From Pseudisothecium myosuroides (taxonomy: Eukaryota; Streptophyta; Bryopsida; Hypnales; Lembophyllaceae), in the NCBI GenBank assembly GCA_951799445.1, contig OX637287.1, positions 51,427,724 to 51,491,723 on the forward strand: 64,000 nucleotides of DNA, given 5' to 3'. Shown one piece after another: positions 17,991 to 63,197 of this stretch. Each line of letters starts with the position of its first letter. The first letter of the stretch is position 1. The position numbers and the translations under genes were made by a program. The notes below the pieces were generated by a model. The model was not told the DNA's origin, did not search any database, and saw only the letters and a program-made list of their open reading frames with translations.

Positions 17991-20900
17991 TCAAGTCTCC
18001 ATGTTAGTGGGGCCTTCAGCACCCACGCCGATGCCACCTCTACCAGAAGTATCATGTCGATGAATCTCCGTAGTGCGTCTCTCCTCCTCAACGTCAACCT
18101 TAATTTGTTGTTCATCTTTTCCACCCTCCAATGAGTCAATGTACTCTTGAAGAGACTTAGGGTCAAGAATCGTAAAAGGCTCTCCAATTCCCACGATAGC
18201 AACTCCACAATTGGTACTACTAAGTTCTTCTTCTTGGAGAGACTCTTTGATAGCATAAAGAGCATGTCGAATCAACTCCTCTTTGGAACATTGCATAAAT
18301 GTCTCAAACTTACGTTCCAAGTAGGTCTTTGCAGCCTGAGAGCGGGAACCAATAGCAAATGCTTGAAACTCAAAGTAGTTGCCAGAAGGACAATTTTGAT
18401 AAAGATGTGGCCCTCCTTCATCCAATCCTGCTACTAGAAGTCCTACTCCATATGGTCGCTTCCATGAACGTTGCGTGCACACCTGCATGTCTCCAAGACA
18501 TACCCACTCCTTAAAAAATTAAAAACACAACCTATGTTCAAATCTCTATAAGATAAAGGATACTAAAATTATTAGGGGCCTACTAAAATATAGAATCATA
18601 TTAACAACAACAATTCATCAATTTATAAAACTTAGTTGGAGCCCTTGATCAACAATTTCTTTTGTTTGACAATTATATTGTTTTTTACAGTGAATAAAAT
18701 ATATTTACTTGTGCCCAGAAAATCAAAAAACTTGGTTGGAGTTTTTAGTAAGTAGGGTAAGCATGGCTTGGTTTAGAATGTCTATGGCTACTATTCTTTG
18801 AATGGAAAATGGAATTGTCAGCTATCGGTGTTGCTTATAGTGGTTTAGATCCTCTAACTTCAAATGGTTGCATAAGAATTCATATACAACAATAAATATT
18901 TGATCCAAAGAGAGTTTCATTCTTTGAACTCCCAAGCTCAATTGTGATCTCCCAATGAGAGCATAATCTTACATATGTAAAATGTTTAAAGTTATGTTAA
19001 TAGTATCCTCTACCTTAATGCATGAGAGGATAATCATGTAGACATAGGGTTATAAGGAATAAGAGTTGATCCATAAACTTGAAGCAATACACAAATTGAC
19101 TTCAATGATATCAAGTTATTTTTCTCCTTTATTGCTTAGTGCAAAGTCTTTTTAGATATTGGAATGCGCAAGTTTCTTAAGGAGGTGAAAGGCAACTAAA
19201 ATATCTTTAACAAAATGAATATTCCCTACTCCAATATCTTTTATGCAAGGTAGAGGTACCTATTTGAGACACCCTAAAATCTTGTACAATTTACTTTTAA
19301 GAATATACAACATCTAAAACATAAGAATAAGTGTTGATTTTTGTCATCCACTCACTAAACTTCAAATGCTTATGACCTTTGCATATAGTATCTAATATAC
19401 CACGTTCTTTGGTGCATTTGATTCTTCTTTGATATGCTAATAAAAATACATTACAAGTGAACCATAATAAGAACTGTAAGTTAACACCTTTACCACTTGG
19501 TTGGAGAACATGGGAAATGGACAACATAAAATGTCCACAAGCTATAACTAATTGGTAAAATCCAAGATTGCATTACTAAGAATATTGTAGATTAAAACCA
19601 TTTTTTTAATTTTAAATGACTTCACCAAGAAAGTAGCACCCTAAGGTTCCATTTTTCATGTTTTTTTTTTATGGTCATTGAATAAACTTTCTAGTTATTT
19701 CAAATATCATATTACAAAAACGCAATGAAAACCTAAGGAAGACCTCATTGCCATATGTGGGAGTCATTTGTCTTTGAAAGCTTAGGGATGCTATCTTGCT
19801 CTTTGTTGTTTACCATTAGGATTGGATAGTTTGGGCAAAACCAATGCCTTCTCATATGAGTTGTGCCTTGAGGGCTTTCATTGATAATCGCTTTTCTTGT
19901 CCAATCCTTCTAGGGTTTGATTGTTTTGTATGCTGATTTTTATGCAAGGAATCTTCATTTGTTTTCAAAACAAAAAACAAAAACACCAAAGAAGATATTG
20001 CTTCAAAACTGCAAATGCACAAAAGTGGCCAACCTATGCTTTATCAGACGTTCGCACCACCAATTATTCCACTCGCAACAACAATTCCTAAACAAAGTGG
20101 TGATTAAGCATTTTGTAGTTTAAATCAAATTAAAAATATTAAAATGACCTCACCAAGGAATTATAGCACCCTATGTTTCATATTTTTTTTAATAGTAATT
20201 GAATAGAATTTTCAATTATTTCAATTATCATATTACAAGGACAAGGGAAAACCTAAAGAAGATACTAGAGTTCATCATGAAGTGAACCCCAATTTGTAAA
20301 AGGGGTGCCAGAGGAAGGTTTTATTGAGAAGAGCATAAAAACACCCTTGGGATTTGCTCCAGGGGTGGTGTGGGCTGCGTGGTGACCAAATGTGTTGCTA
20401 TCTTGGGGCTTTGGTTTGAAAGGATGGCGTGGTTGTAGGTTCGATACCCTAGCGGTGACAGGTTCTTTACCTTGTGTGAAATCAACCTCTCATCCTAACA
20501 TAAACCTCTGCAGTGTGTTTCCTTAACACACTTATATCAAAAAAGAAAAAAAAAAGAGTATAAAAAGAAAACCACCAAACTCCATCACACCAAATTTGGG
20601 AGGGTGCTTCAAGGAGTTTCGTCCTGTCTTTTTCTCAAACTTGGGCTCCTGGCCCCTCATTGGACGATTAACTCTACCGTATTGATTCAAAAACCTCCAA
20701 TACACAAAACTGTGCAAACCTGTGCTTTATCGGCCACTTGCACCACCAACCGTCCCACCGGCAACGGCGACTCATAAACAAAGTGGTGGTTGATGCACTC
20801 CGACCGCATGTAGCGCGACAGCACGCGCCCATCTGCTGTCAATCCGGCCATGGCGATTCCAACGTGATCATCGATCTTGAACAGCTTCTTCTGATGCGCG

Positions 20901-39247: not shown

Positions 39248-39250
39248 AAT

Positions 39251-39263
39251 CACTACAAGAAAA
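39251..39263 (+). repeat. Left CACTA terminus
   Basis: CACTACAAGAAAA, preceded by the target duplication AAT (39248-39250). Confidence 0.95.
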
Positions 39264-40041
39264 TGGGGGTATATGTGATTGCGGGGTCACGTGACTGCAG
39301 CCCTGCAGTCGTGGGCGCGACTGTCCCTCTCTAATTGCACGAGCTGGAATGCGATTTACAAGTACAGTTAAGCTGGAGTCGCGGACACGACTGGGAGATG
39401 AAGACTGGAAAGAAAAGCAGGCTTCCTACGCATGTTTTCTTTCCCGGTTCATTTCTTTTACTGCAAGAAGCTTAAAGTCACATTTCGGGACTCAGGATGA
39501 CTAAAACATAACTGGTACGTGACTGGAGATGCTCTATTGTCCACGTCACATGGTCTTTGACGCTGCCTACGTGGATTACGGGAGTTGACGTGACCCCTGC
39601 CAACTCGTCAGTCGTTATGGAGTCACGGTGAGTCGCCATGTGCCACTTCAAGGCGTTGGGAGACGACTAGAACTTCAGTTTACAGGAACTTGAACGCGAC
39701 TTGCACGGAATTTCTGTACGCACGGGGTTTTTGAAGTACTCATTTTGTAGAGGGACTTCGAGCAGAGCAGGGAAAATGCAGATATGCAACACTGGTGACT
39801 TTGGCAACGATGTGAACACCTTAAATGGGGAACATATAGGGGGACAGAGATTGCAAAGACGCGGGGAAACAAGCCCTTCACTTTTCAGTTAGTGCATGAA
39901 CATGAAAGGACTCACGCATCGTATTCAGTCACATGCTACACCTAGCTAGGGAGTGGCCACAATGCGACTCCGCCGCGACTGGGCCATAACTGATTGCAGA
40001 GTACCACGGACACTGTGACACGACTGCAGGGCTACTGACCA

Positions 40042-43000
40042 CTAGTACCGTGAGTGCGCCAACAAATTGTCTTCCTCATACAATTCAATGGCCCCTAAAA
40101 GATTCGCCGCCTCTGGGGGGAATGGCATCGTGTGCGGAGCAGTCAGTCCGGCACTCTCCGACGAGGTGGTGATGAAGGCGTCTGTCTTGTCCACGACCTC
40201 CCGGCGAGCTCTTGCTTCTTTCCGTAAGACAACTTTCCATCCAGGCCTGCCGGCAATATCTGAGAAAAAGACTTGTGTGGCCTGGCTGGGAAAGATGAAG
40301 GGATCTGCCATATGAGGTAAAGTATGGCGAGTGTTCACAAGTAGGAAACCAGCATCATCCCGCGCATAAGTTGCATTCCCTCGTTTGTCTTGGTCCTTCA
40401 CCCAATCATAGCACAGTAGAATTATTTCTGTACCGAGACCTCCGTAATCCAGCACCAAAATGTCTTTTAGCACCCCGACATAGTTCACGGGTAAGTCCAC
40501 AGCTCCCTCCGAAGCCTGTTCAAATACCGAAGCCACGCCGCTGTTGTAGCTTTGCAATGCGGATGTGGTTGCATCGTCCACGCGGAAGTGGTTTCCGAAA
40601 GCGGTGATCCGGGAATACCTCGATGGCCCTTTGCGACGGCCTCGTGCTTAGCAACAAGCGATCCCGGTCCTCAGGAGAGCGCATATCCAAATCAGAATTG
40701 CGCACGGCGCTCCGTACCCACTCTGCTAGCGTTGGGGTGGATGGATTTGACCTCTGTTCAGCCCTCCATTTCCTGCGCGTGGAAACGGTGCACTTCATTA
40801 GACAATATCGTGCACACAGTTGACACGTCTGACCAGAATGCATAGACGCTGAGGGGATTTGACAAATGCACCAATGTTCGAGCCGCGACAGTATCACCAC
40901 TTCTACTCGACTGAAAGAAGTTGACAGACAGTCACAGATTGATAGTGAGCGCTATTTCCGTACACGCATTGGACTGCAAAACGACTCCAAGACAACGAGT
41001 CGCGAGTTTGTCCTACAAGCTGCAGGGATTGCGTCCCTCACAGCGCTGGTTTCAAGTACAAGAAATGCGTGCAAGCCAGGTTGGTCACAACTACTTCTGT
41101 CATAACTGGAGTACTGTCAGTTCGATTGACATGCGAGGATGAAGGTAGCACTCACGCATAGAAGTCTCCCATAACGGATGTGTTCATCAGCACGTACTCA
41201 TGTGCGATGTCGCGTAGCGCAGCGGTCAAAATATACTGCTTCCCTGCACCCTGAAGAACTTCTTCAGCATCCCCATACTCTTCATCTTCATCCCACACGC
41301 GTCTTTGAGTGTGCTCAAACCTCTGCAAGTGCTCCGTGATGAAGCCAATGCACTCATCCTTCAAGTATCCCTCCGCCATGCACGCCTCGGGCCTAGCCAA
41401 ATTCCGGACATGATTCTTCAGCACTTTCATATAGCATTCCACTGGATACATCCACCTGGCGCTCACTGGCCCGCACAGGTCCAGTTCCTTGGCTAGATGG
41501 TAAGATAGATGAGTCATAATGTCAAAAAACAATGGAGGGAATTCGATCTCTAGTAACGCCATGCTCTCGGCGACATCAGCTTCGAGGGAGGGAAAATCAC
41601 TCGGATTGTAAACCTTCGTGCATAGGCGTCTGAACACCTTGTACATCCGCATCACAACCATGCATGGCCCAGGTTCCATTAGCCCGCAAAGCGCAAGAGG
41701 CAAGACCTGCTGCATCAGCACGTGGTAGTCGTGGGATTTGAGGCCCCCAAAATTCTTTTTCCGTATGCACTTCCCAAGGTCAGATGAATACCAAGACGGA
41801 GTCTTCAGAGACTCTATGCAATGGGCAAACGTCTTGAATTCCTCTTCAGTCAACACGTAAGAGGCTCTTGGCTTCAACATCTTTCCGGCCTTCCGGGGGT
41901 GTGGGGTGAGCCACAGGTGTCTCCTCACCTGCCGCCTCTGCAAATCCCTCCTTACCTTGACTGTGTCCTTTTTGCCTGTTATGGTTTTGAGGAAGTTCTT
42001 GGCGAGGTTCATTTCGCAATGCATGACGTCCAGCGTATTCCGAATGAGAAGATCTTGTATGCAATCAAGTAAATAAAGAATCAATGCAAGTGACAGCATA
42101 CATACGGCGGATAGGGACTACCTCGAGTGCGGTTTTGGGGGACCCGGTCACAACGGAGACCAGTCGCACAATAGTGACGAAGAAGTCTCTTAATGTCACT
42201 GCGACTCATTTACAACTTCCTCTCTACTAAACCGCGACTTCATAGTCGTTCTACTGCCGTCAAACTCACAACGCAGATGCGGTTTACTAAGAGACAAGGC
42301 TAGATGGGAGGCTCACCTTCCAGTACGGCAATCTGAACAAAATGCTCATGCGCTTCACTCCGTGCACTTTGGAGGGGTCACCTGCACCGTTGTCTTTGTG
42401 GTTACCCGCCTTCCAGGCCTCAAACTCTGCCGCATGTGCCAGCTGCTCCTCCACTGTGATGGCCGGTGGTTTAGGTCTTGTTTCCATGGCACCATTGAAG
42501 TAGTCCTTCATGGAAAATGACCTGAAGGGGTGGTGGTCAGGTAACCAACGGCGTGTCCCTCCGTACGTCTGCTTGCCCAACTCCATGGAATGCTCAGCGT
42601 CCAAGTTCATGCCGCACCACGGACACGCTGCATAGCCCTGATGGGAGAAGCCCCCCACTGTCCCATAGCCAGGGAAGTCGTGGATTGTCCACAACAACAT
42701 GGCGTGTAACTGGAATGCCTCGCAACCTGGACCCTTTGTAATGTCATATGCAGGCACTCCCGTCCATAGCTGGAGCAACTCCTCCACAACGGGCTCAAGG
42801 TAAACGTCAAACACCTCCGAGGTCACGGACTCCCTCCCTGGAATTAGAAGTGTTAACAGCACAAAGAATTTTTTTGTGCACAGCCAAGGGGGGACATTGT
42901 AATTCAGCAGAAGTACTGGCCACGTGGACCACGACGAACTATTATGTTTGAACGGGTTCACGCCGTCTGCAGCCAAAGCAAAGTGAGCATTCCGGGGATC

Positions 43001-44084
43001 CAATGCAAAGGTGGGGTCAACATTATCATGGAAGTGCCGCCAAGCCTTCGAATCACAGGGATGACGAACCAGCCCGTCCCCTCCCTCCTGGTTGCTCCGG
43101 TTCTCATGATGCCACACCATGAGCTTCGACAACGTCGGACTCCGGAACATTCGCTGCAAACGAGGAATTATTGGGAAGTGACATAGAACCTTCACAGGGA
43201 AGGCCTTCCGCTCCTCATCTCGGAATCTCTTCCCACCACACTTAGGGCAACGGAGGGCATCCACGTGTTCACCACGGAAGAGTACGCAGCCTTGCTCGCA
43301 TGCGTGAATGGTGTTGTAGGACAAACCCAGCTTCGCTGTGAGGGACTTCGCAGCATGATAGGTAGTTGGCAAGGTATTGTTTTTAGGTAGCAGATGACGG
43401 TTGAGGATGCTGAACAATTTGTTTGCACATGTGTTGGTAACACCGTGCACTGTGCATAGATTCATCAGCAGCACTGTGGCAGCTAGTGTGCTGGACCGGG
43501 CGCCATCGTACAACACATTCATGGACTCCTCCAGAGCAGTGACGGTGGGGTGGTCGTCAGCCACCCGGGCATCCTCAACCGAGGCCGTCATGACGGCCAC
43601 ATCACGACACTCCTTGCTTTCAGCATCGTCCCCTGCGTCCATTTCCCTGCACTCTTCGTTGATGGAATCTGCCGTTGCAAATTAAAGGCGTCCATGACGG
43701 CCTCCTGAAATCGATCACCTGCAGAGGGTGCCTCCTCCTCGATACGTGATGCCTGGTGGACCATGCCGCGTACATCCACTGTGGCATCCACTTCACGCGG
43801 AGCCTCTACGGCAGGTGCCCAGAAGTCGTCCTCCCACTCCTTGTCTGAAGAGTCCCGGGTGCCAGGTCCGGTCCACCTCCGCAGAGTCGGATCCCTGCCG
43901 TTGCGGATGAGGTGGTCCCGACATTACGAAGCAAGATTTTCTTCCGGCCCTTGCATTTAGTGCAAGGGCAATGCAGTCTTGTGACGCTGTCTCGTGCAGC
44001 CAGTTGCACCTCCCTTGTCCAGAGACGCTCATCTCTGAGCCGCTGCCTCTCACTGGCAGAGAGGGGAAGTCTTGCGGGTATCAT
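40042..44084 (-). pseudogene. TNP2-type CACTA transposase, frame-disrupted
   Basis: Family order is preserved. An N-terminal Cys motif (LHCPCTKCKGRKK, about 43945-43985; Transpos_assoc-like) leads to HLIRNGRDPTLRRWTGPGTR. The tnp2 core (42317-43642) has HACEQGCVLF, CPKCGGKRF, WHHENR, FALAADGVNPF and a CPWC motif. The DUF4218 part (41156-42053) has LDVMHCEMN, RWMYPVECYMKVLKNHVRN and ARPEACMAEGY. The C-terminal DUF4216 part (40042-40910) has YVGVLKDILVLDYGG. The intron 40911-41155 joins in phase. The frame changes near 43918 (one base short after LRNV), near 43670, and near 40617 (one extra base). The visible junction 42317/42053 is one base out of phase. The start ATG at 44084 is the first in the frame of the Cys motif. 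The family cuts and pastes CACTA DNA by recognising the termini; this copy should not yield a full protein unless the disruptions are sequence errors. Confidence 0.88.
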
Positions 44085-44089
44085 CGACT

Positions 44090-45350
44090 CCGCCTACGAT
44101 ATCAGTAGTTTTCCACGTCCTGTACTCCAAGCAGGACACGCGGTTAGGGTGTGCAATTCCTGCTTTGAACATCTTGGGACTGCGCACGAAGACGGGACTG
44201 TCTTGACTTTGTTGTGACTGAAGAGTGACTGCAATGAGTTCCGCTTCAGTGAAGCTTCCTGCCTACGACTCTGACACTACTTCACCCAGTGACTCTGGAG
44301 TATCACAATGTGACTGGGCGGTCGGGCGAGCAAATTTGAGGACTTCTAAACTTCTATTCATGGACTCATGTGCGGAACGCCTATCTCTCAATTACCAGCG
44401 ATAGTATTAGGCCTCACGTCAGATGTGAAGATTGATGTGTGAATATGGAATAGCCAGTAGGCCTTCGTTACAAAGGTATGGCGGTATCCTTCCGAAGAGC
44501 CGAGCCATTAGCCGCTGCCAAGCGAGGGAGGAAGGTTCAAACGCATGGCCGGAGGGCGTGGACAAGAAAATACAAGATTAAGCTACACCAATCACACAGT
44601 CCAGGAATACCCCACTCTAGGAAAATACTATGAGACGGGCAGAAGGACATTGCGTTCGAACAACAGCGGACGGAGACGGTTGGAAGAAAGGCGAGAAGAT
44701 AAAAGTATGGACTTTCAATTGAAACGGATAGTGTGATCTTCTTCCCACAGTTTCAAATACTGTGTGCCAAGTTTGGTTGCTAGTGCTAGTCTTCCGAAAA
44801 CTAAGATGTCTTCTGAAGGGGCTGTATTCAAAAAAGCCCAGGAGGTGTTTCTTCTAGCCAATCAATCAAGCATTATGAAATACAAGGTAGGCCCTGTTTC
44901 GCTTTCCATGTCGCTGCAAGAATATGAACAGTATAGTCAAGCGGAAACAATGAAAATACACGTACATAATAAATGCCATGGAGTCTTTGAAGTCCATATC
45001 ACTAGAGTCAGGGACAACCTATGCCCATACAATTCAACATAGTAAATGATGGTGCACAGTAGTGGACTACGATACCGACGTACCTAAACCAACATTACAG
45101 AGTGACTTGCATGAAAGTGCGCCATGAAAAAAAATACCCCTCACACGCTTAAACTATAAAGGAGGCGCCTTCAAACAAACAAGTGACTACTAGGAAAATA
45201 TTGCAAGCAGAACGATGGCACTTGGAAGGTGGAACCTTCTTCACGCCGAATCCTCCGCACGAAGGGATGCTTCTCAGCGTTCAAGGAAAGAAAATCGTAT
45301 TCATGTGACACTCCAGGAGGAATACTGGAAAGCATATGTACCCCAAGAAA
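44090..45350. other. CACTA intergenic region between the divergent genes (left part)
   Basis: No recognised gene. A plus-strand frame at about 44764-45042 is open for about 92 codons with protein-like composition, but it lacks a family assignment and clear splice context. Together with 45780-46738 it would hold both divergent promoters. Confidence 0.35.
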
Positions 45351-45356
45351 ATGAAA

Positions 45357-45779
45357 TGCCCTCTTCTATGAGGAAGAGCGGGCCAAAAAAAAAATGCCCT
45401 CTTCCATGAGGAAGAATGGCCCAAAAAAAGAAGGGAATGCCCTCTTCTATGAGGAAGAATGGCCCCCCAAAAAGAAGGGAATGCCCTCTTCCATGAGGAA
45501 GAATGGTCCAAAAAAAAAAGGGAATGCCTTCTTCTATGAGGAAGAAAGGCCCAAAAAAAAAAGGGAATGCCCTCTTCCATGAGGACTCCTGGTCCAAAAA
45601 GAAAAGGGAATGCCTTCTTCCATGAGGAAGAATGGCCCCCCAAAAAAAAGGGAATGCCCTCTTCCATGAGGAAGAGCGGGCCAAAAAAAAAATGGAATGC
45701 CCTCTTCCATGAGGAAGAATGGCCCAAAAAAAAAAGGGAATGCCCTCTTCCATGAGGAAGAGCGGGCCAAAAAAAAAAT
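45357..45779. repeat. Minisatellite, 43-44 bp unit, ten copies
   Basis: Ten units begin ATGCCCTCTTCYATGAGGAA, followed by an AATGGCCC or AGCGGGCC variant and an A-run of variable length ending GGGA. Length variation is mainly in the A and C homopolymers. Long open frames on both strands here are products of the repeat, not genes. Confidence 0.95.
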
Positions 45780-45844
45780 TGTAATTTCTAGCAAAGGGGG
45801 GAGGGTAAGGAGGGAGGACAGGTTAAAAAAAAGGAGACCCGACT

Positions 45845-46246
45845 TCAAGCAAAGCAGCTCATCTTTTGCAATATGAGAAGCATGTCTTGACAAGGAATTC
45901 CGGTTAACAGGCACAATCGAAGGTTGGGCACATTCATGAATGGACTGTCATAATCCAGAAGTTGGTAGTAAACAAATTCATTTGTTTCCATCGGCATGTG
46001 GATGACACCGTCGTCACGGCCACCGAAGACAGGTGGCCTGAAGACCACAGTGACCTCAAAGTCATTTAGCATTACTCGTAACTTGGACTCAGCTTCTTCT
46101 AGTCTTGTCATCACTGAGGGATGACTACAAGAAGTCGCATAGAAGTCATTATTCACAACTTGTGACTTAGATGCGAACGTCCACAGCCGGACGTCTGTTG
46201 TCGACGTTTCTCCGGCCTTGTGCCGTTCATTGTGCCGTGAAATCCA
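45845..46246 (-). CDS. Unassigned exon-like frame inside the CACTA element
   Basis: The frame is open for about 133 codons from a good acceptor (AATTACAG at 46247-46254) to a stop at 45845. The peptide looks like a folded protein: WISRHNERHKAGE, LWTFASKSQVVNNDFYATS, then an amphipathic LEEAESKLRVMLNDFEVTVV, FGGRDDGVIHMP and LLDYDSPFMNVPNLRL. I do not recognise the family. It lies on the minus strand between the two divergent transposon genes. No matching upstream exon was found, so it may be a captured host exon or the remnant of a third transposon gene. Confidence 0.35.
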   Translation of the reverse strand, partial: WISRHNERHKAGETSTTDVRLWTFASKSQVVNNDFYATSCSHPSVMTRLEEAESKLRVMLNDFEVTVVFRPPVFGGRDDGVIHMPMETNEFVYYQLLDYDSPFMNVPNLRLCLLTGIPCQDMLLILQKMSCFA

Positions 46247-46738
46247 CTGTAATTGAATTCACAGATATTAATTAAGCTGAATCGAAATAATTAGGCCTAC
46301 TCCAAAGTATGAAATCACAAGCAATCATTGCCCCTAAATGGACAGCGCTCAAGGGCGATCAGCAAAAGATCGTGGACATCGAGGTCGTCAAGTCACCCAC
46401 TAGTCCGATATAATTACTACGGACAGTAATTAATGGGGAGCCATTGAAATGGGCCTCCCTAATCATGAAACACAGCAGCCTTGCTCACATTCTTAAGGGC
46501 ATTTCAAATACAAACCTGGTAATGACTGAGTTCCTCCGGCACTTATCGCTTCCAACACCTGAGGATCAGAAGACGAGGAGGACCCAGCGGACTCTAACGC
46601 CACTGTTTAGCGCCGCGGAGATTGTGCCGCCAAGACGTTGTGGCCGAATTACATCCTCCGCAGCTTCCAACAGCGGGGGCTGCCAAGCGTAGTCGCCGTT
46701 GCATGCAGGAGTAACAGATCTGCGCCAGAGTCCAGTCG

Positions 46739-48863
46739 ATGGAGAGTCCGCCGCAAGAGAAGTCGGAGTACGAATTGGCGCGTGATAGAAACGTCGCGGA
46801 GGTTCGGAAGAAGATGCAACCAATGTTCGAAGCACGCTCAGAGCTGTAAGTACGCGGCCACCCTTCCGTGCGTACAAGTCTCACTGCATGTACACTCTAA
46901 TTCTATCGGCGCTATAGCAGGTAATTTGGCATGATGGGGACATTGTCTAGTGAGAAGTTGTTCCCAACACCAAGCCTACAGTGCATTGTTCCACAGAGTG
47001 ACTTTCATGGTCGAGTCTAGTAGTTACTGTGCATTGATCCTTGCGCTGTTTCTTCCATGAGTCTATGCGGCGGCGGAATAGGGTTTTACTGCAGGCGTAT
47101 TAATTTTAGGACCGCCGCCTCCCACAGCAGCGCGTCAGTTGTGGTCTCTCTGTCGTCCCGGAGTCATAGTTTATGACTTCTCACAGCCAAGCGACAGGTT
47201 CCAGTCACGATAGAGTCACGGTAGAGTCAGGGGGTAGTTCAACTGCCATTAATTACTGATTGCCTCGGGGAAAGTGAGCCCTATTTCAACATGAAAGCCA
47301 CGTGGGCCCTATCCTTGCACTGCGCCCGTAAACCCTCGTCACTTGCCCATGGAGACGTTCCACGGAGATGTTTTTTCTTTCCTTTTCCGCCGCGCGTGAC
47401 CACTGGCATTGCGTTGATCAACGCGTTCAGCGTCACCCTAAACCCTGGCCGTCGATTTCTTGCGGGAAGCTTGACCTCGCGACTTGGGCATTGCAGGGAC
47501 AACCCGCATGCGAAGAAGAAATCCGCGGACTTGTTAGCCGGAGAGGAGAGACAGCAAGGGCAGGTGAGGCGTTCGTCGCGGGGCCTTCGAGGACGCGGGG
47601 GGAGGAAGCAGCAGATCTCAGGAGTGGCGGGAAGACGTGTCCGGTTTGCTGACGAAATGAGCAACCGCGACAATTCCTCCTCCGAGGCGACGGAGTCCTA
47701 TGACGAGGCCATCGCCAAAGGTATGATGAAATTAGCACTAGCTTGTTCCCATGTGCAGCAGCAGGCCACCTTGGAGGCAGTTGCGGCAGGTAATTTGGCA
47801 TCACTCCGCCATGAATTCGGGTGCGGGTTTAGGGTTTAGGGTTTAGGCGTCCGTCTTGTTCCATGCATGATGTAGGGTGTCATTTTATACCTTGTTTGCA
47901 GTACTGGTCCTTTGAGGTCGCCTCCATGCATTCGTCTTGTGGGGATCATGTCACTTGCGCCCGCACGGTGAATGTCTTTTTCTACAGCCGGCTAACGCTG
48001 TCAGTGTCTTTTTGTTGTTGGGTGATGAAGGGAACGAAGATTTTGACTCCAGCGATGAAGACGTGTCGTTAGAGGAGGAGGACCCGGAGCCCGAGCCAAG
48101 GCCGAAGAGGCAATGGGGGTCAGGGATTCTCAAGAAATCTCCTCCTAAGGTACCTGCGACGTGGCCTGCTGTGGTAGTCCCCAGACCCTCGACGAAGGAG
48201 CGTGCAGCGGATGTCGGAGGGTACCCGCCCAATTTGCAATGGGTGCCTGGCCACTACATGCCCGCTTGCACGTCGCAGGCTCCAGCACCGTGGGCGCAGG
48301 GATTGTGTGGTCCATCAGTGCCAGAGGAAGTCTCCTCCCGCGGGGTCCGACGTGCTTCAGGCTCCCAGTACGACCTCGGGAGGACTGAGCGCGTGCAAGG
48401 CGGTCCTAAAGCTGCTCGCGTTGAGGTCCTGGAAAATGGAGACATTGACCAGACGGGGGAGGGTAAAAACGCATGGGACGAGGCTGTCCGCAATTTTGTT
48501 CCTAAAATTTTGGACATGAGCTTCATCGACTAGAGGAAGCAGAAGCCTCAGGCTGTGTAGCGCCTCAGAGACGCTCTGGACAACAAGTTCCAGTATGTTG
48601 GAAATCCAGTGAGCATGATTGGATATCGGGCGGCCATCACGCGGTATATGAAGTCGGAGCGGTCCCGGCTGAAGTACCGGTTTGATCATGGCAATCACAG
48701 TTGCCCAGTTCGGATAGATGAGGAGCAGTGGGATCGCCTCATGGCGTATTGGGACACGCCTGCGCAATGGCGGAAGGCAGCGTTAATGGCTCCTGCTCGG
48801 CAATGTGTTGGTACTGGAGGGCAGGGGACAAAGAAAGTAAAACCTGCTAAGCAGCCGCAGGTG
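46739..48863 (+). pseudogene. TnpA-like CACTA gene, N-terminal and Transposase_24-like part
   Basis: Exons 46739-46845, 47497-47789 and 48031-48863 join in phase at GTAAGT, GTAATT and GTAAGT donors with AG acceptors. Exon 1 starts MESPPQEKSEYELARDRN and continues VAEVRKKMQPMF, a pattern common at the N-terminus of plant transposon proteins. Exon 2 is basic, then rich in S/E. Exon 3 opens with an acidic DSSDED run and ends with a Transposase_24 (PF03004)-like core: FID-RKQKPQAV-RLRDALDNKF, GYRAAITRYMKSER, WDRLMAYWDT and KAALMAPARQ. At 48531-48533 and 48558-48560 the frame reads TAG where the family has Trp (DW and LW positions), so this copy carries two nonsense codons about 301 and 310 codons in. 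The same gene continues into 49010-51556. Confidence 0.7.
47825..47847 (+). promoter_or_regulatory. Interstitial telomere-type repeat (TTTAGGG)3
   Basis: Three tandem TTTAGGG units lie just downstream of the exon 2 donor. This is the plant telomere repeat; short internal copies (telo-boxes) are known binding sites for Myb/TRB-type factors. Any role here is inference. Confidence 0.5.
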
Positions 48864-49009
48864 GTAAGTACTTGGGCCGTCATAGTCTAACCCAGTGTTG
48901 TGGCCTCCGTCCCTTTGCAATGCCTTGTCTTCTCCTGCAAGAGTGAGGGCTTTCTGATCGTCGTAGTCATGACCTTGAGTGTGACTTGTGTTGTGCCTTC
49001 CTGACGCAG

Positions 49010-51556
49010 AGTGAAGGACGCTTGAGCAGCCCGGGGGTCACTTCAAATATCCCACTAAGTGCATGTCACGGCGGGTCAGGGACGGTGAGTTCTCATTGTA
49101 ATTTAGGGTGGGATTATGTTTGCTTATACGGAGAAAATACTTGCCGGTGAGTTCTCCTTGTCTTGTTTAGGGTGGGATCATTTGCATATTCTCGAGGTTA
49201 GCGTATAAGATTCCAGTACGGGGGCTATACCTTTTTGAAAAGAATATGGCGGGATGCTGTGATTTCGGGGTAGTAGTGCGCAGTAGTCACGCAATAGAGC
49301 AGGAGTAGCACCCAGTTGCCATTGAGTCACCGTGAAGTTGCGCAAGAGTAACTTTTCAGTCTTGAAACAGTCGAGTGAAAGTCGCAGAGAAGTCATGTAG
49401 TTACGCACTAGTCATGGCTACCGTAAACCTTGAAGCCCCAGCAAAGACGGTAGGATGATGAATTCATTGACTTCCAATGCGTGTGTGAATGTGTGTTGGA
49501 CAACAGAGTGGCGCTGCAGGGGAGATTGTGACAGCCTCGACCTTGTCAAGCTGGAAGCAAGACGTGGAATGGAGGTTTGATGCCTTCCAAAAGACAGCCG
49601 ACAAGCAATCCTCTACAATCGAGGACCTGCGCTCCATATTCGCGTCCTTCATGAGTCGGTCTGCTGTTGCCGACGGCGCGAGCCCATCTGCTTCGAAGTC
49701 GGCGTTGGAAACGCATGAACCGTCGAGTCGAAGATCGTCGAAGAATAAGAAGCGACGCCAAAATCAGCTGGCGGACGCAGCGGAGATCACAGCGACCGGA
49801 GCACAGCTGACCTTGTCGGAGGAGGATCTGCCAGCTCTGCCACGTCCACGAAGTGCGTCTTCGGAAGCGCCTAGGAAGTGGAAGGTGGCAAGCAGGGGAA
49901 AAGACCCCGCGCCAGACGCGCGATTGGGGCGGAAATCTTCAACCCCCAGCGAGCCCACTGTCACCGACCCGTACGTGACCCCGTCAAGTCCCGGGGTTCT
50001 TGAACAGAGCGTGGCGGATGATGCGGGAGGCACGGGAGTTTCTGGCAACTTGGCATCAGCAGCACAGAGCGAGAGATCGCCCGACGTGGCGCATGACGAC
50101 GCGTCCTTGGAGGCATTTGGACCCGCGGAGCCTGAGAAGACTCCGTATGATGAGGAAATGGAGACGCCAGCAGATGTCGTGACAAAACACGGCAATTCCG
50201 GAGACGATGCACCCCAAGGAGGAGAGGGTGGGGATTCAGCAGGAGGAGGTGCCGCTGCTGGAGGAGAAGTCTCAACCGTTGGAGGAGGAGCTTCGGCCGA
50301 GGGAGTTGAAGCTGCATCCGAGGAGGTTCAGACTGCGGCTCTGACTGTCCTTGCGCCGACCGAGGCTGTCCAAGCAGCGCCCCCAACTGTGGAAGCAACG
50401 ACTGCAACTGTGGAAGCAACGACAGAGGGAGAAGAAGCGGTGGCGGAGGGAGCAGGAGGTACGCCCGCCCAAGGCGCAGTGGAAGAGCCAAGAAGGGAAG
50501 AACGTCGTTCTCTAGTCACGCGCGAGACTCACGCCATAGCCCCGGCCATCCCTGCGAGTCCCGTCAAAGTGGAGGCGTCTCAGAAGAAGTCGAAGAAACC
50601 TCCAAAATCTCCTGTCAAGGTACACGCTGCCACCGGGGTGCCTCAGAACATGTTGACAAGAGGGAGGCCTGGAATGCCGGATGTTGTTGGGGCGGCAGGG
50701 AGTACTCGGGGGAGGGATAAATTGGTAGTATTCAATGTGCAGGGAACCTTATTGGACTGTAGTTTGCTTACTGAAGCCAACCCGAACAGCAAAATAAGGG
50801 CTTCAATGAAGACTAACCTGCGAAGAGTAGTGTTGAGGCTGTGGCTTAAGCCATTTCTTTCCAGATGTTTTGTGCACTTTGCAGTGGGCTTTTGGGGCAG
50901 CAAGAGCATGTCTTTCATGGAGGACGTAGTTCCAACCATAATGGCTGGTCCCTTTAGGGGTCCAAATTGTCTCCCTTTATTTTCGTGGTCAGGTAAACAG
51001 TGTGAGTTCTGGGACGGGGGAGATGGCGCAGAGGCATCGTGGGGGAAAAAATTGGAACGAGTGTATGCACAGTGGCCTCAATTTACCGCCCACAACACAG
51101 TGATTGTAGATAGTAAACTCTGTAGGGTAGCGTGCAATCCCCTAGCGAATGTGGTCGTGAACTCTCCGTTCTATGTGACGGAACTGTCGACATTGGCTGA
51201 GGACAAGGACTACCTGAAGTGCGACTTGTGGCCGCTTTTGGAGTCATTCCACAAATGCCCAGACGTGGGATCCTTTTGTTCAAAGCACCCATTACTAGCT
51301 TCGCAATCCGCTCATGACATGAACTCCAAATGCCGTCATGATTCCCCGTACAAGTTTCTTGACGTCATGGAAGGTGAGGGGACTAGCGACCTTCGTGGTT
51401 GCATTGGCGGAACATGTCCCCTCACCTTCCCTTCTCTCGCTTCACTAACTGCTATGTTGTGCTCGTGCAGGCGAAACAGCAGTAGCCGAGGGAGTCGAGG
51501 GCCAAGGCAGCGGTGGGGACTGCGGGGATGGCGCCGAAGCGCGATGCGTGGTCTAA
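49010..51556 (+). CDS. TnpA-like fusion: linker plus FCP1/NIF-like (HAD) pseudophosphatase domain
   Basis: Exons 49010-49084, 49507-51373 and 51471-51556 continue the upstream gene in phase (donor GTAAGT at 48864; 25-codon exon; large exon; strong GTGAGG donor at 51374; 97-bp intron). Order: a possible short coiled coil (WRFDAFQKTADKQSSTIEDL, a usual follower of Transposase_24), then about 350 residues of Ala/Glu/Thr/Gly/Pro-rich linker, then about 190 residues (50716-51292) like the NLI-interacting/FCP1 domain. The latter has DKLVVFNVQGTLLD, HFAVGFWGS (for VGVWSS), LFSWSGKQCEFW (for WDQSxC), HNTVIVDSK (for NTLLIDDS), LANVVVNSPFYV and a final SKHP. The DxDGT catalytic motif reads NVQGT, so both aspartates are gone, and catalysis is not expected. 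The tail after 51471 is short, acidic and Gly-rich and stops at 51554. It could also be read as a stand-alone gene starting at the ATG at 49489. Confidence 0.72.
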
Positions 51557-51915
51557 AAAGGTGCTTTTCATGAACCCAGTTTTGGCACAGTAGGCGTGGT
51601 GTTTTCTGGCTTCGGAGTCTGTGGACAGTGGCGCGAAAGTGTTGTTGAAGTTGTGAGGAAGTAGCGATGAAGTGCCCTTTCAGTAATGCGCAGAGGTCTG
51701 AGATGCAGGGAAGTCACATATCAGTAGCCAGTAAGCCGCGTATGAGTTGTTTACCAGTCGCGTGTCATTCGACTTTCACCACACACCCAGTGGGTCATTT
51801 TTTTTTCACTTCACACGTTGGGGAAGTGTTGCAGCGCAGACCCTAATCCTCTGTCAAAATATATGTTTGAAAGCGGTATTACCATTTTAATAAGTACTGG
51901 ACCTCCCGGTTGCAG

Positions 51916-52185
51916 CAGTTCCATATCGGCGACGAAGTCTTCCTCTACAACCCTCGAGCGGTGCGGCAGAAAGTGGCGAAGGGCAAAGTCAGTGGACTGC
52001 CTGGTCAGCAGACATTTCACTTGAAGGATATTCCGGAGCCCTATGTCAGGGTTGACGTCTCTGCAATTTTGAATCCTGGAGTTCCGCTGATGATCCCGCC
52101 ATCAGACCCCGACATGGTACTTATAGAATATGCGCTGGGGAGTGCCGTACTGTGGCACGGCAAGCAGGTGAAGTTTAGCACGTGA
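51916..52185 (+). CDS. C-terminal module of the CACTA TnpA-like protein (last exon)
   Basis: After acceptor GGTTGCAG the frame reads QQFHIGDEVFLYNP, KVAKGKVSGLPG, YVRVDVSAILNPGVPL and VLWHGKQVKFST, then stops. This is the pattern of the C-terminal module of plant En/Spm-type proteins (GxEVxLYN ... VAKGxV ... GxAxxWP). It is in phase with the upstream exon if splicing uses a weak GT at 51548 or 51551, giving a protein of about 1,174 codons. Otherwise the stop at 51554 makes it a separate or alternatively spliced end. Confidence 0.6.
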   Translation, partial: QFHIGDEVFLYNPRAVRQKVAKGKVSGLPGQQTFHLKDIPEPYVRVDVSAILNPGVPLMIPPSDPDMVLIEYALGSAVLWHGKQVKFST

Positions 52186-52189
52186 AAGG

Positions 52190-53221
52190 CACTGAAGGCT
52201 GGGTGACGTCATAGATCAGGGTACAGAGCATGGCGTCATGAACACGTAGTCTTTGTAAGTGCTGAGAGCCAGCGAATTGTTCTCTTTTGAGAAATGCAGA
52301 ACTATCTCCTTTGCATGAACTGTCTGACGTTGAATGCTTTCTTTGTTCAGTTTTGTGACTTTCGTCAATGTCTGCTGTCTCTCCGTGAAGCAATGTGGGA
52401 GTGCAGTTACAGTCTCTGTTGAATGAGGGCGTCCATAGTCCCTAATTCATGCTCAGTTGGAAGTGCTCATTGATCGCCGTCGTGATGTTTCATAGCGTGT
52501 TCGTGAGACGCTGTCACTTGCACAACACAGTCGCCACTCCCATGAGACTGGAATGCTACACCTAGTCGTTGTAGGTGACTAGTTCTAATGGCATGAAACT
52601 TCACTAGGACGCGACTTCAGAGTGACTCATGCAGTTATGAAAGTGGCAACGCCCTCCACCGCAGTGACTTCATTGTAATTGGGTCACGACTCCGGAATGA
52701 CTCACGCGTCCCTGTCGCGTCGTTCCCACAATAGCAGTGTCACTTTGAAATGACTTCGAGTAGTGCTCACTTGTGACTAGTTGGTCACTGTCGCACGACT
52801 TTGTCGCGACTCCGAGGCAACTGTGACCCTCACCCCACATTGCTGTCCACGTCAGATTTTTTAGGGGTCCTACAAAACTGGTACGCGCTAGTAGCGGCCA
52901 GCCACGTGTCTGTCCACGTCAGATTTATCATGGATCCGACGCAACTCAGTCGCGACTGCAGCGTGACTGGACGCGTGGCTGTCCACGTCACATTGTCTTC
53001 CTTCCCACTTTCCACCTCAGACTTTATCATCCATCTCCCACCCAGAAAGAAAAAGATGGTGATAATAGTTTTCCCTAAGTCTGCAAAAAACATAGATTTT
53101 AGGCCAATATATTTGACTTTTTCACAACTGATGAGTTTTCAGTCACCTGAAAGTCACATGCAGGGAAAATGACTAATCAGAGTCACAAATCAGTCATTTT
53201 CTGCAGTCACTTTACCCCCCC
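52190..53221. repeat. Right subterminal repeat region of the CACTA element
   Basis: Dense short words GTGACT, CGCGACT, AGTCAC and TCCACGTCA occur in both orientations, as in the left 0.75 kb of the element. No gene. Confidence 0.7.
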
Positions 53222-53234
53222 TTTTCTTGTAGTA
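53222..53234 (-). repeat. Right CACTA terminus
   Basis: TTTTCTTGTAGTA, followed by the target duplication AAT (53235-53237). A perfect terminus would end in G. Confidence 0.92.
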
Positions 53235-53237
53235 AAT

Positions 53238-54345: not shown

Positions 54346-55376
54346 CATTGTTACATTAGGTGAGTTTGGATTACTAAACATCCCGGACAGGCAGACATAT
54401 TAAATAGTTCGGACAGATAATGTTATACTTTAAAAGTAGTCACATTGGGCAAATTTGGGTTATTAGACATCCCAGATGGATGGACAAATCAGACAATTCT
54501 AACGGAAGGTCAGTCCAATGTGACAAATATGGGTATGCCATTATTTGAGCTAACAACAATTTCTCTCGATCTTCCCCTTCTAGACAAGCATTGCAGATTG
54601 ATTCTATACTGGTACATTTTTGGCTAGGTTTTTATCTTGTTTTTGTGAATTGCTTGTGGAGATTGCTCAGCACAGCCACTAGTAGGAAGTGATGACTATT
54701 CTAACAAAAAATTGACAAATTTGTATTGTTTTGGGCACCACTGGATATGACTTGGGAGGTTCAACTAATTTCTGTACTTGCTTCTAGAAATGTGAATTTT
54801 CTTTTGTTGGTTTGGGTAGTAGACCTCCTGAAATTCCTCATGAAATTCTCTTAAAAGTTTATTTACCTATTCAACTTCCTAATGTGGCAAACATGCTGTC
54901 ATAGACATTGTATTTGCTTCAATGTAAATTTTTTTGTACTGCATGGTAAAAAACATTTACCACTTTGTAGCAACAATAGAAGCTTCGTAAATTGTATACC
55001 AAAATTGTGTTTCCACTTGTTGTTCATTTTGTAACATGAAATGAATATTGTAAAAAGGGCAGCCTTCTCTTTCAAGTATAAGGTTTCTTACATTTAATAT
55101 AGAGCATTGCACACTTGGCTTCAATGCTAGATTTCAAACTACATTCAAAACATGTTGAAGGAACTACACGGCATTACAATATAAAGCACTGTGGGTGATT
55201 CTAGACATTTTGCTGGTAAATGAGGTTTCATCACACTGTAATGGAATTTCATCCAAAATTTAGATGACCCTAATTTGTCGGATGCAACTATTTTAAGGTA
55301 ATCACATTATCTATTCAATATGTCTGCCCGTCCGTCCGAGACGTTTGGTAATCCAAACTCTCTTAATGTGACAATG
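54346..55376. mobile_element. 1 kb element with long inverted ends
   Basis: The left end from CATTGTTACATTAGG through GAGTTTGGATTACTAAAC and CAGACATATTAAATAG is inverted at the right (CTATTCAATATGTCTGCC ... GTTTGGTAATCCAAACTC ... AATGTGACAATG), about 60 bp per arm. A second, imperfect copy of the left end (GTCACATTGGGCAAATTTGG) starts at about 54440. The target duplication is not clear, and there is no coding sequence. Confidence 0.65.
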
Positions 55377-61514: not shown

Positions 61515-63197
61515 ATGTGGAGAACAGGAGGCCGATTGTTGCTGCAAAAACTCCTCTCCCCATCCTCACCGCCTTCAACCCTAAATCGCCCCTCCACCCT
61601 TTCAGCCTCGTACTCATCCCCGTTTCAATTCAATCCTACTCCACCTTTGGCATCTCTCCACAGCAAGTCCTCGTCGTCATCGTCTTCCACTGTGGATTCC
61701 GCAGGTTGGAGAGCGTTTCGGAAGGAGAAGGAAAGGCGAGCAGCGGAGGCGAAGGTTGTGGAGAAGATTTATGGCATTGTGAAGAAGCGAGGGGAGTGGA
61801 ATGTGGACACGGTGAACGAGCTGGAGAAGCTGAAGATTCGGTTACGGTCCAAGCTGTTGAACAAAGTGCTGCGAGAATTGAATGATCCTGATGTGGCGCA
61901 CTCGTTTTTCCTGTGGGCGGGGAAGCGGCCGTCTTTTAGTCACAGCTTGCAGACTTATCATGCCATGATTGAGATCATGGGGGCTGCGCAGAAATTCGAC
62001 GCGCAGAGTGAGCTGCTACAGGTATGTGCAAGCTAGGGTTTAAGGGTTCAAGGGATACCAAGGGCTGGTCTGTTGGTTTGTCTGATTTAACATTCCTGTG
62101 ACGTTTGGCTGCATGATTGTTGACAATTCTAGAGGGAGGCAGTATACTGTGCATACCAGAAGGTCCTTGTTCATGATTGTACTATGCAGTAAGTTGACGC
62201 CAAAATTCTTACAGACGTCTGTTAGTTATTAGCATAGTATAGGGTCACTCTTGCAAAATTTATGCTTTGAGAACTCTTGCTGATGAAAACCTCCAATCGC
62301 GTGCTCTGCTCGTTGAAATCCCTCATAAATCACAAACCCTTCAAGTAGAGTGAGGAGGGTTTGTGATAAAGCTGGAACCGCATCCTTCTGTCACTAGGAT
62401 GCGCAGGATATGCGTAGGGTCTAATAAAATTTTACAAAGAGGGATCCCTAGGGGTTGATCTCATAGACCATTGGTAATATTACTACCCTAGAGTCCTCTG
62501 TGTTTAAGGTTCAATTAATTAATTACAAAAAAGGGGTTCCCTAGGTTTTTGTAATTACACTAGGGTTCTCTGTACTTCGGAGAGAATTTCGTTGCCATCC
62601 ATAACCTATGGCTTGCTTTCCATCTTCAATACTATTCCTGTTCTATATTCAACTGAGTTGGTGTGTTCGCAGGATATGCATCGTCAAGGTCTACAAGCAA
62701 ACACCTCAACTTTCAACATCCTCTTGTTAGGATTCAGTCGGGCGAATTTCACAGACAGAGTGGTGGAGACTTTCAAGCAGATGGACAAGTACGGGTGGAG
62801 CCCGAATGCGTTCACCTTCAAGTGTGTCATCCGTTCGTTAGTCTGGAACACCCAAGCTTTGGAAGCCCTGTCCATCTACATGAAGATGATGGAATTCGGT
62901 TACATTCCCGACAATTTTACTTACAACGGTCTCATTGAGGGACTGTGCCAAGCGGGGCACGTGGACGAGGCTTTCATCATTTTTCAGGACATGGAAGACC
63001 GGGGCCTCAGTCCCGATGCCATCGCCCATGCGGCCTTGATCAAGGGCCTGGACACCAAGGGACGTGTTGATGAAGCGTGCCGGATGTTTCACGAGATGAC
63101 TGGGAAGAACCTTCGTACTGTTGTGAATACTCACAAAGGGGTCATGGGCGTCTTCAGTAAGCGGCACAAGGAAGTTATGATGTCTTCAGATGCATAG
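61515..63197 (+). CDS. P-class pentatricopeptide repeat protein, organelle-targeted
   Basis: PPR proteins bind organelle transcripts, one base per repeat. Two exons, 61515-62021 and 62673-63197, join in phase at CAG|GTATGT...CGCAG|GAT to give 343 residues. The N-terminus (MWRTGGRLLLQKLLSP followed by a Ser/Pro-rich run) is acid-free for about 50 residues and looks like a mitochondrial or plastid presequence. A linker (VEKIYGIVKKRGEW) and HSFFLWAGKRPSF lead to about five P-type repeats. The first spans the intron (TYHAMIEIMGAAQKFDAQSE / LLQDMHRQGLQA); the next four begin STFNILLLGF, FTFKCVIRSL, FTYNGLIEGL and IAHAALIKGL. No PLS, E, DYW or SMR domain follows. At five repeats it is short for the class but not obviously truncated; the C-terminus is a short basic tail. 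The target RNA cannot be inferred. Confidence 0.88.

Follow-up and report, generated by a model that had tools for sequence, protein, structure and literature searches.

A CACTA transposon of Pseudisothecium myosuroides with a NIF-fold pseudophosphatase domain in its second gene

CACTA (En/Spm) transposons are described, in the excerpts of PMC4158355 on which we draw, as having terminal inverted repeats (TIRs), a 3-bp target-site duplication (TSD) and a TNP2 transposase accompanied by a second open reading frame (ORF) of poorly known function. The protein encoded by this second ORF varies much between elements and is itself poorly understood. A 64,000-nucleotide stretch of the Pseudisothecium myosuroides genome (Bryopsida; assembly GCA_951799445.1, contig OX637287.1, positions 51,427,724 to 51,491,723; hereafter the window) contains such an element, and our analysis supports the view that a NIF/HAD domain is built into its second, non-transposase gene. 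The reading we favour, with a probability of roughly 0.6, is that of a CACTA element in which a TNP2 gene is accompanied by a divergent second gene bearing a probable coiled coil, a linker and a NIF-fold pseudophosphatase, the latter serving as a binding platform, and in which splicing behind this domain is slowed by a hairpin. The features of immediate concern, in window coordinates, are as follows.

39251..53234, no strand: whole CACTA element, 13,984 bp, delimited by TIRs and TSD
39248..39250, no strand: left copy of the TSD, AAT, from the sequence
53235..53237, no strand: right copy of the TSD, AAT, from the sequence
49507..51373, plus strand: NIF exon, with a probable coiled coil, a low-complexity linker and the NIF domain (open frame, Pfam and relatives)
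50719..51267, plus strand: NIF/FCP1-fold pseudophosphatase domain, with motif I FNVQGTLLD in place of DxDxT

The NIF exon is open over 622 codons, within an open block at 49489-51573; the other two frames across it hold 25 and 26 stops, and none of 2000 base shuffles was open. An initial annotation of this DNA had proposed a possible coiled coil, a 350-residue low-complexity linker and an FCP1/NIF-like HAD domain here. The open frame, the linker (315 residues as sliced out, with 17% Ala, 11% Gly, 10% Glu and 10% Pro) and the NIF domain are borne out, while the coil, at about 49540-49660, is probable, having been judged from the sequence rather than by a coil-prediction program; its region is also matched in relatives. 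NIF (PF03031) is the only Pfam domain found in the ORF, and exceeds its gathering cut-off of 21.8 bits over the whole ORF (E = 8.9e-6, 25.9 bits) as well as over 50716-51375 (E = 5.3e-7, 29.9 bits). The HAD/NIF fold was confirmed by a fold search with a predicted structure, modelled from 70 sequences that included 69 of the 139 relatives described below. A first model, built from seven sequences, was dropped as poor (pLDDT, the predicted local distance difference test, of 57.9); a fold search with it likewise put SCP2/SCP1 first, at E about 1e-4. Model residues N7 and Q9 map to SCP1 positions 96 and 98 (model 1 aligning with SCP1 90) if the alignment is ungapped there, and the best matches in a viral fold library were NIF-like phosphatases of giant viruses. 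By sequence profile the best solved relative was UBLCP1 (E = 5e-8). Membership of NCBIfam HAD_IIID1, which we take to be the UBLCP1 type, was rejected at 20.3 bits against a cut-off of 192.25 bits. Motif I of the window copy reads NxQ, where active FCP1/SCP-type enzymes have DxDx(T/V) with two catalytic Asp.

This departure is shared by the family. Three protein searches (6 matches; 120 of 193; and 28, of which 13 were new) provided at least 139 relatives, the 120 from the largest search being 94-419 residues long by its length limits and most of them too short to reach the coil. The 139 relatives and the window were placed in a hidden Markov model alignment of 141 rows, which are related rather than independent and inform on amino-acid patterns only. 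Among the 126 rows reaching the nucleophile column, 124 have Asn and two Tyr; the second catalytic (acid) column holds His in 116, Gln in seven, Leu in two and Tyr in one. Asp occurs in neither. The Thr of motif I is kept in 120 of these 126 rows, the Lys of motif III in 105/115 and the first Asp of motif IV in 93/102, the residue following the latter being His, Asn or Ser in 97/101. The catalytic pair has thus been swapped in one consistent way across the family with the rest kept, a pattern not given by random decay. Since 69 aligned relatives show 35-74% identity to the window's NIF stretch, the family is either old or diverse. Scans of viral contigs and of prokaryote genome contigs returned no relative of it. 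One member (P0023) is named 'NLI interacting factor-like phosphatase' in its source.

Judged by their sequences, the coil, linker and NIF domain belong together as a unit in the relatives. A BLAST comparison with the low-complexity filter and composition correction off matched the coil region in 11 of the 139 at E < 1e-3 and in three more at 0.02-0.07, and longer relatives (P0129, P0131 and P0135 among them) carry the coil, a long low-complexity linker and the NIF domain within one ORF.

Both ends of the CACTA element are present, and the NIF exon lies inside it. The left TIR, at 39251, reads CACTACAAGAAAA; the right, ending at 53234, is the same at 12 of 13 bases and differs in the last one, an A in place of the G of TAGTG, so that this end reads TAGTA. 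Together with the AAT on both sides and a TNP2-type transposase, these termini identify the element as a CACTA transposon, and the 13-bp TIR CACTACAAGAAAA is also printed for a radish CACTA element in the excerpted PMC7210773. The element has a GC content of 51.6%, compared with 35.4% in the remaining window. AGTCGCG occurs in eight copies within the two 0.9-kb element ends and once in the roughly 48 kb outside; GTCAC is also denser at the ends, both motifs being candidate subterminal repeats. The transposase gene is composed as follows.

40045..43681, minus strand: TNP2 (TnpD-type) transposase gene, from Pfam matches in three blocks, with predicted intron borders
43681-42290, minus strand: block with Transposase_21 (Pfam, 4.9e-66)
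42117-41155, minus strand: block with DUF4218 (Pfam, 2.6e-31)
40647-40045, minus strand: block with DUF4216 (Pfam, 1e-7)

Its assignment as a DDE transposase is by these Pfam families, and a scan of viral contigs gave no relative of it. The gene carrying the NIF exon lies on the plus strand, divergent from TNP2, and therefore takes the place of the second CACTA ORF as laid out in the excerpts of PMC4158355, that is, the ORF2/TnpA position of a full-length element. Two further features of the element may be recorded: a tandem array of about 10 copies of a 43-bp unit (AAAAGGGAATGCCCTCTTCCATGAGGAAGAATGGCCC...) at 45348-45778, between the two divergent genes, and an open block of 137 residues with protein-like composition (LRVMLNDFEVTVVFRPPVFGG...) at 45845-46258, on the same strand as the transposase and without a Pfam match up to E = 10.

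Beyond the NIF domain, the end of its exon coincides with an inverted repeat in this copy.

51369..51430, plus strand: hairpin over the 5' splice site, with a 15-bp perfect stem and a small inner hairpin (folding against shuffles)
51374..51470, plus strand: candidate intron of 97 nt, GTGAGG...GTGCAG (sequence, and similar tails in relatives)
51471..51556, plus strand: next in-phase exon by the splice 51373>51471, an acidic/Gly-rich tail (ETAVAEGVEG...CVV) and stop

The hairpin arms, at 51369-51383 and 51416-51430, enclose the donor of the NIF exon within the stem, and the loop (51384-51415) contains the small inner hairpin. Folding gave z = -5.15 for 51353-51433 and -3.95 for 51353-51480, with none of 200 shuffles equally stable in either case; the only three other candidate donors compared (46846, 48864 and 49085) gave +1.16, +1.77 and -0.32. 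Within the window the exact arm sequence GTGAGGGGAC is found solely at the hairpin, once per strand, and is unlike the GTCAC and AGTCGCG motifs enriched at the element ends. In 77 of the 139 relatives the sequence extends to the domain end; 49 of them carry a donor-type peptide G[EK][GEV], and 40 tails were long enough for comparison; clustered at 65% identity, with one member taken from each, they formed 24 clusters. Tails able to encode GTCCCCTCACC were found in 11 clusters exactly and in 19 with at most one mismatch, whereas 1000 rounds of tail shuffling gave means of 0.14 (maximum 2) and 2.8 (maximum 9), respectively. An unclustered run on 32 distinct tails gave 15 and 25, respectively. 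Of the 19 clusters that match within one mismatch, 18 have the second-arm site 27-30 nt past the donor peptide and one has it at 33 nt; the three reading phases are represented by 12, 4 and 3 clusters. Were it the peptide that is conserved, one phase would be kept, whereas here a near-fixed spacing recurs in three, which suggests that the constraint on the second arm acts at the nucleic-acid level; the stretch after the NIF exon would then most simply be an intron with a conserved hairpin. By eye, Pro-x-Gly stands at the matching place in many of the relatives' tails, compatible with CC...GG pairing.

The remaining parts of the second gene, as proposed, lie to either side.

46739..46845, plus strand: candidate first exon (MESPPQEKSEYELARDRNVAEV...), ending at a GTAAGT donor, on the basis of sequence
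48006..48863, plus strand: core-like block, the Transposase_24-like core of the initial annotation, ending at a GTAAGT donor
49010..49084, plus strand: candidate exon of 75 nt whose phase agrees with that of either neighbour
51916..52185, plus strand: C-terminal module, claimed as En/Spm-type, possibly reached through a weak donor and a candidate member only

The initial annotation had joined seven candidate exons in phase into one protein running from an N-terminal module through this core and the NIF domain to the C-terminal module. The blocks 48006-48863, 49010-49084 and 49507-51373 do join in phase (48863>49010 and 49084>49507). The partner of the first exon is ambiguous, the many acceptors compatible with its phase allowing several possible next exons; the exon itself had no homology by Pfam, with DUF7067 alone appearing, at 0.081, below the cut-off. 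The core block is broken by in-frame TAGs at 48531 and 48558, which may be nonsense changes or may be bypassed by a possible in-phase GT-AG intron at 48463-48570 (GTAAAA donor), one of 64 in-phase GT-AG combinations when any quality is counted. We rejected its membership of Transposase_24 (PF03004), for which it scored 12.8 bits against a cut-off of 28.7 and covered 18 of 138 profile positions; read through both stops (P0007), it matched no Pfam family. At the other end, the good splice 51373>51471, from a strong donor at 51374, adds 27 whole codons before a stop at 51554, and an in-frame route to 51916-52185 requires a weak donor such as GTGGTC at 51548. For the sequence from 51871 to 52185 Pfam gave no match up to E = 10, and its likeness to a plant transposable-element C-terminal domain is putative; we do not accept the En/Spm label. 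None of the 139 relatives has this module in the same ORF, nor the upstream core, for which there were three weak BLAST matches (E 0.056-0.48), an absence for which introns could account. What stands of the proposed architecture is a NIF domain in the second CACTA gene, the order of core, NIF domain and C-terminal module within one ORF having been found in no relative. A single seven-exon protein is possible: as far as sequence goes, phase is what links the core to the NIF exon, and the C-terminal module is poorly joined. Within the same gene, three plant telomere-type repeat units (GGGTTTAGGGTTTAGGGTTTAGG) at 47825-47847 close an open block.

Several other explanations compete with ours, and two of them concern what the domain is. 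NIF domains are typical of host phosphatases, as would be expected of simple host-gene capture (transduplication), whereby a plant NIF-family fragment is carried along with no role in transposition. Capture sits poorly, however, with the joint recurrence of coil, linker and NIF domain in relatives, with the age or diversity implied by the identities of the 69 aligned members, with a catalytic loss common to 124 of 126 rows and with an exon open throughout its length, and we regard it as highly doubtful. The shared replacement points instead, on the evidence of the alignment, to a part for binding proteins that the transposon has retained, and not to captured host scrap. An active phosphatase with unusual chemistry, employing an Asn nucleophile and a His acid, would make sense of a nearly invariant N-x-H-G-T signature and of the mostly kept motif III Lys and motif IV Asp, but HAD phosphatases use an Asp nucleophile and such an enzyme is scarcely credible.

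The other two concern the boundaries of the gene and its hairpin. The blocks at 46739-49084 could form a TnpA-like gene of their own, with coil, linker and NIF domain in a separate gene or an independent transcript of the element. This would agree with the pair of in-frame TAGs within the core block and with the lack of both core and C-terminal module from the ORFs of relatives; the latter is, however, also expected where introns intervene, and the phases at 48863>49010 and 49084>49507 match. Moreover, a Gln lies just upstream of the coil region in P0001, P0130, P0131, P0135 and P0136 (by eye, the ORF continuing past it), and as a possible CAG acceptor it would fit a spliced upstream exon. We consider two genes unlikely, though far from negligible. 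The inverted repeat at the donor, for its part, might work at the DNA level as a site for an element protein, or be a relic, with no role in splicing. CACTA ends can have repeated sites forming palindromes, according to excerpts of PMC2613891, and the single occurrence of a similar inverted repeat in a viral-contig scan makes a chance origin conceivable; yet the arm is confined to the hairpin within the window, overlaps a splice donor and differs from the motifs of the element ends. This explanation seems to us somewhat unlikely.

Our preferred reading, of a second gene with a binding pseudophosphatase and hairpin-slowed splicing, has its own difficulties. The copy may be damaged, given the two TAGs of the core block and the altered terminal base of the right TIR. 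Location in a CACTA element is known from the window copy alone, the relatives being known as proteins only, and four of these (P0004, P0005, P0128 and P0134, of 443-505 residues) show no match to the coil up to E = 1. The hairpin in relatives is deduced from what read-through peptides could encode, in a post hoc test on tails that had been inspected beforehand and chosen by the G[EK][GEV] pattern. Shuffling the motif instead (300 trials on the 32 tails) left a smaller margin, with means of 0.36 and 4.5 and maxima of 9 and 19 for exact and one-mismatch matches. The second arm does not fit in five of the 24 clusters, and 28 of the 77 relatives have no donor peptide, several ending before it. 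At gathering score the window has no match among Rfam families. When viral contigs were scanned for the hairpin pattern, one unrelated contig (L001) with a similar inverted repeat came up; such a pair can therefore arise by chance. We dropped L001 itself as a chance match, its translations, read as phage-like, containing no NIF relative by eye.

Under this same reading, the accessory protein would self-associate through its coil, and its dead NIF fold would form a protein-binding, perhaps phosphopeptide-binding, platform docking on a host nuclear partner. Phosphorylated transcription proteins would be the first candidates, given that the SCP/FCP1 relatives work on the tail of RNA polymerase II. 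It had been suggested that the domain might mimic or compete with host phosphatases of the polymerase C-terminal domain; with both catalytic Asp gone across the family, binding is a better fit than enzymatic action. The hairpin would hinder U1 binding, slow splicing at the donor and favour intron retention. The intron-retained form would end soon after the NIF domain and the spliced form would carry another C-terminus, a two-form switch comparable to that of the P-element intron; in the excerpts of PMC4158355, the retained third intron of the P element inhibits transposition, and the same is raised for CACTA transposases. Either form may be the one that acts in transposition. A more ambitious proposal, that a CACTA lineage turned a NIF-fold phosphatase into a non-catalytic reader (FNV(H/Q)GTLLD) tethering the accessory protein to transcription proteins of the host in their phosphorylated form, with a conserved donor hairpin switching between two C-termini, strikes us as decidedly unlikely.

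Three features of the window lie outside the element. Just beyond it, about 1 kb between 52-nt inverted repeats (81%) at 54346-55376 may be a small non-autonomous transposon. A proteasome alpha subunit exon was seen at 17994-18518 on the minus strand (best PDB match 7qve_m, presumably a spinach chain), and a fragment of a PPR-repeat protein at 62523-63194 on the plus strand (PPR_2, 2.4e-37).

Within the open-licence literature, as represented by titles and the beginnings of abstracts, we found no description of a NIF, FCP1 or pseudophosphatase domain in a CACTA element, and among the open-licence matches viewed there was none of a CACTA splice-donor hairpin or intron-retention switch. A large conserved pseudophosphatase family in the position of the second CACTA protein would help to show how these elements meet the host transcription machinery, and the proposed donor hairpin would be a testable case in which a transposon uses RNA structure to control what it produces. 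Annotators may also wish to exercise caution, as some plant 'NLI interacting factor-like phosphatase' genes may belong to transposons and lack enzyme activity.

Comparison with known systems places the locus as follows. It resembles CACTA elements in TIRs, TSD and gene content, and differs in that its second gene carries a NIF-fold pseudophosphatase. Whereas tnpA and tnpD of Spm are made from a single transcript, the two genes here are divergent. With respect to the NIF-family phosphatases SCP1, SCP2, CTDNEP1 and FCP1, both catalytic Asp of motif I have been replaced. UBLCP1 (HAD-IIID) is the closest solved relative by profile, with a weak HAD_IIID1 match; the domain nevertheless scores far below the cut-off of that family, is the sole Pfam domain of its ORF and has a replaced catalytic pair. 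In TIM50 an inactive NIF fold serves for binding, but this is a mitochondrial import protein and is not known to have a transposon link. Finally, MAIL3 and the plant mobile domain proteins offer, according to excerpts of PMC5418596, a case of a single plant protein that couples a transposon-related domain with a phosphatase domain; there, however, the phosphatase is of the Ser/Thr type, the transposon-related domain is a different one, and the gene belongs to the host.
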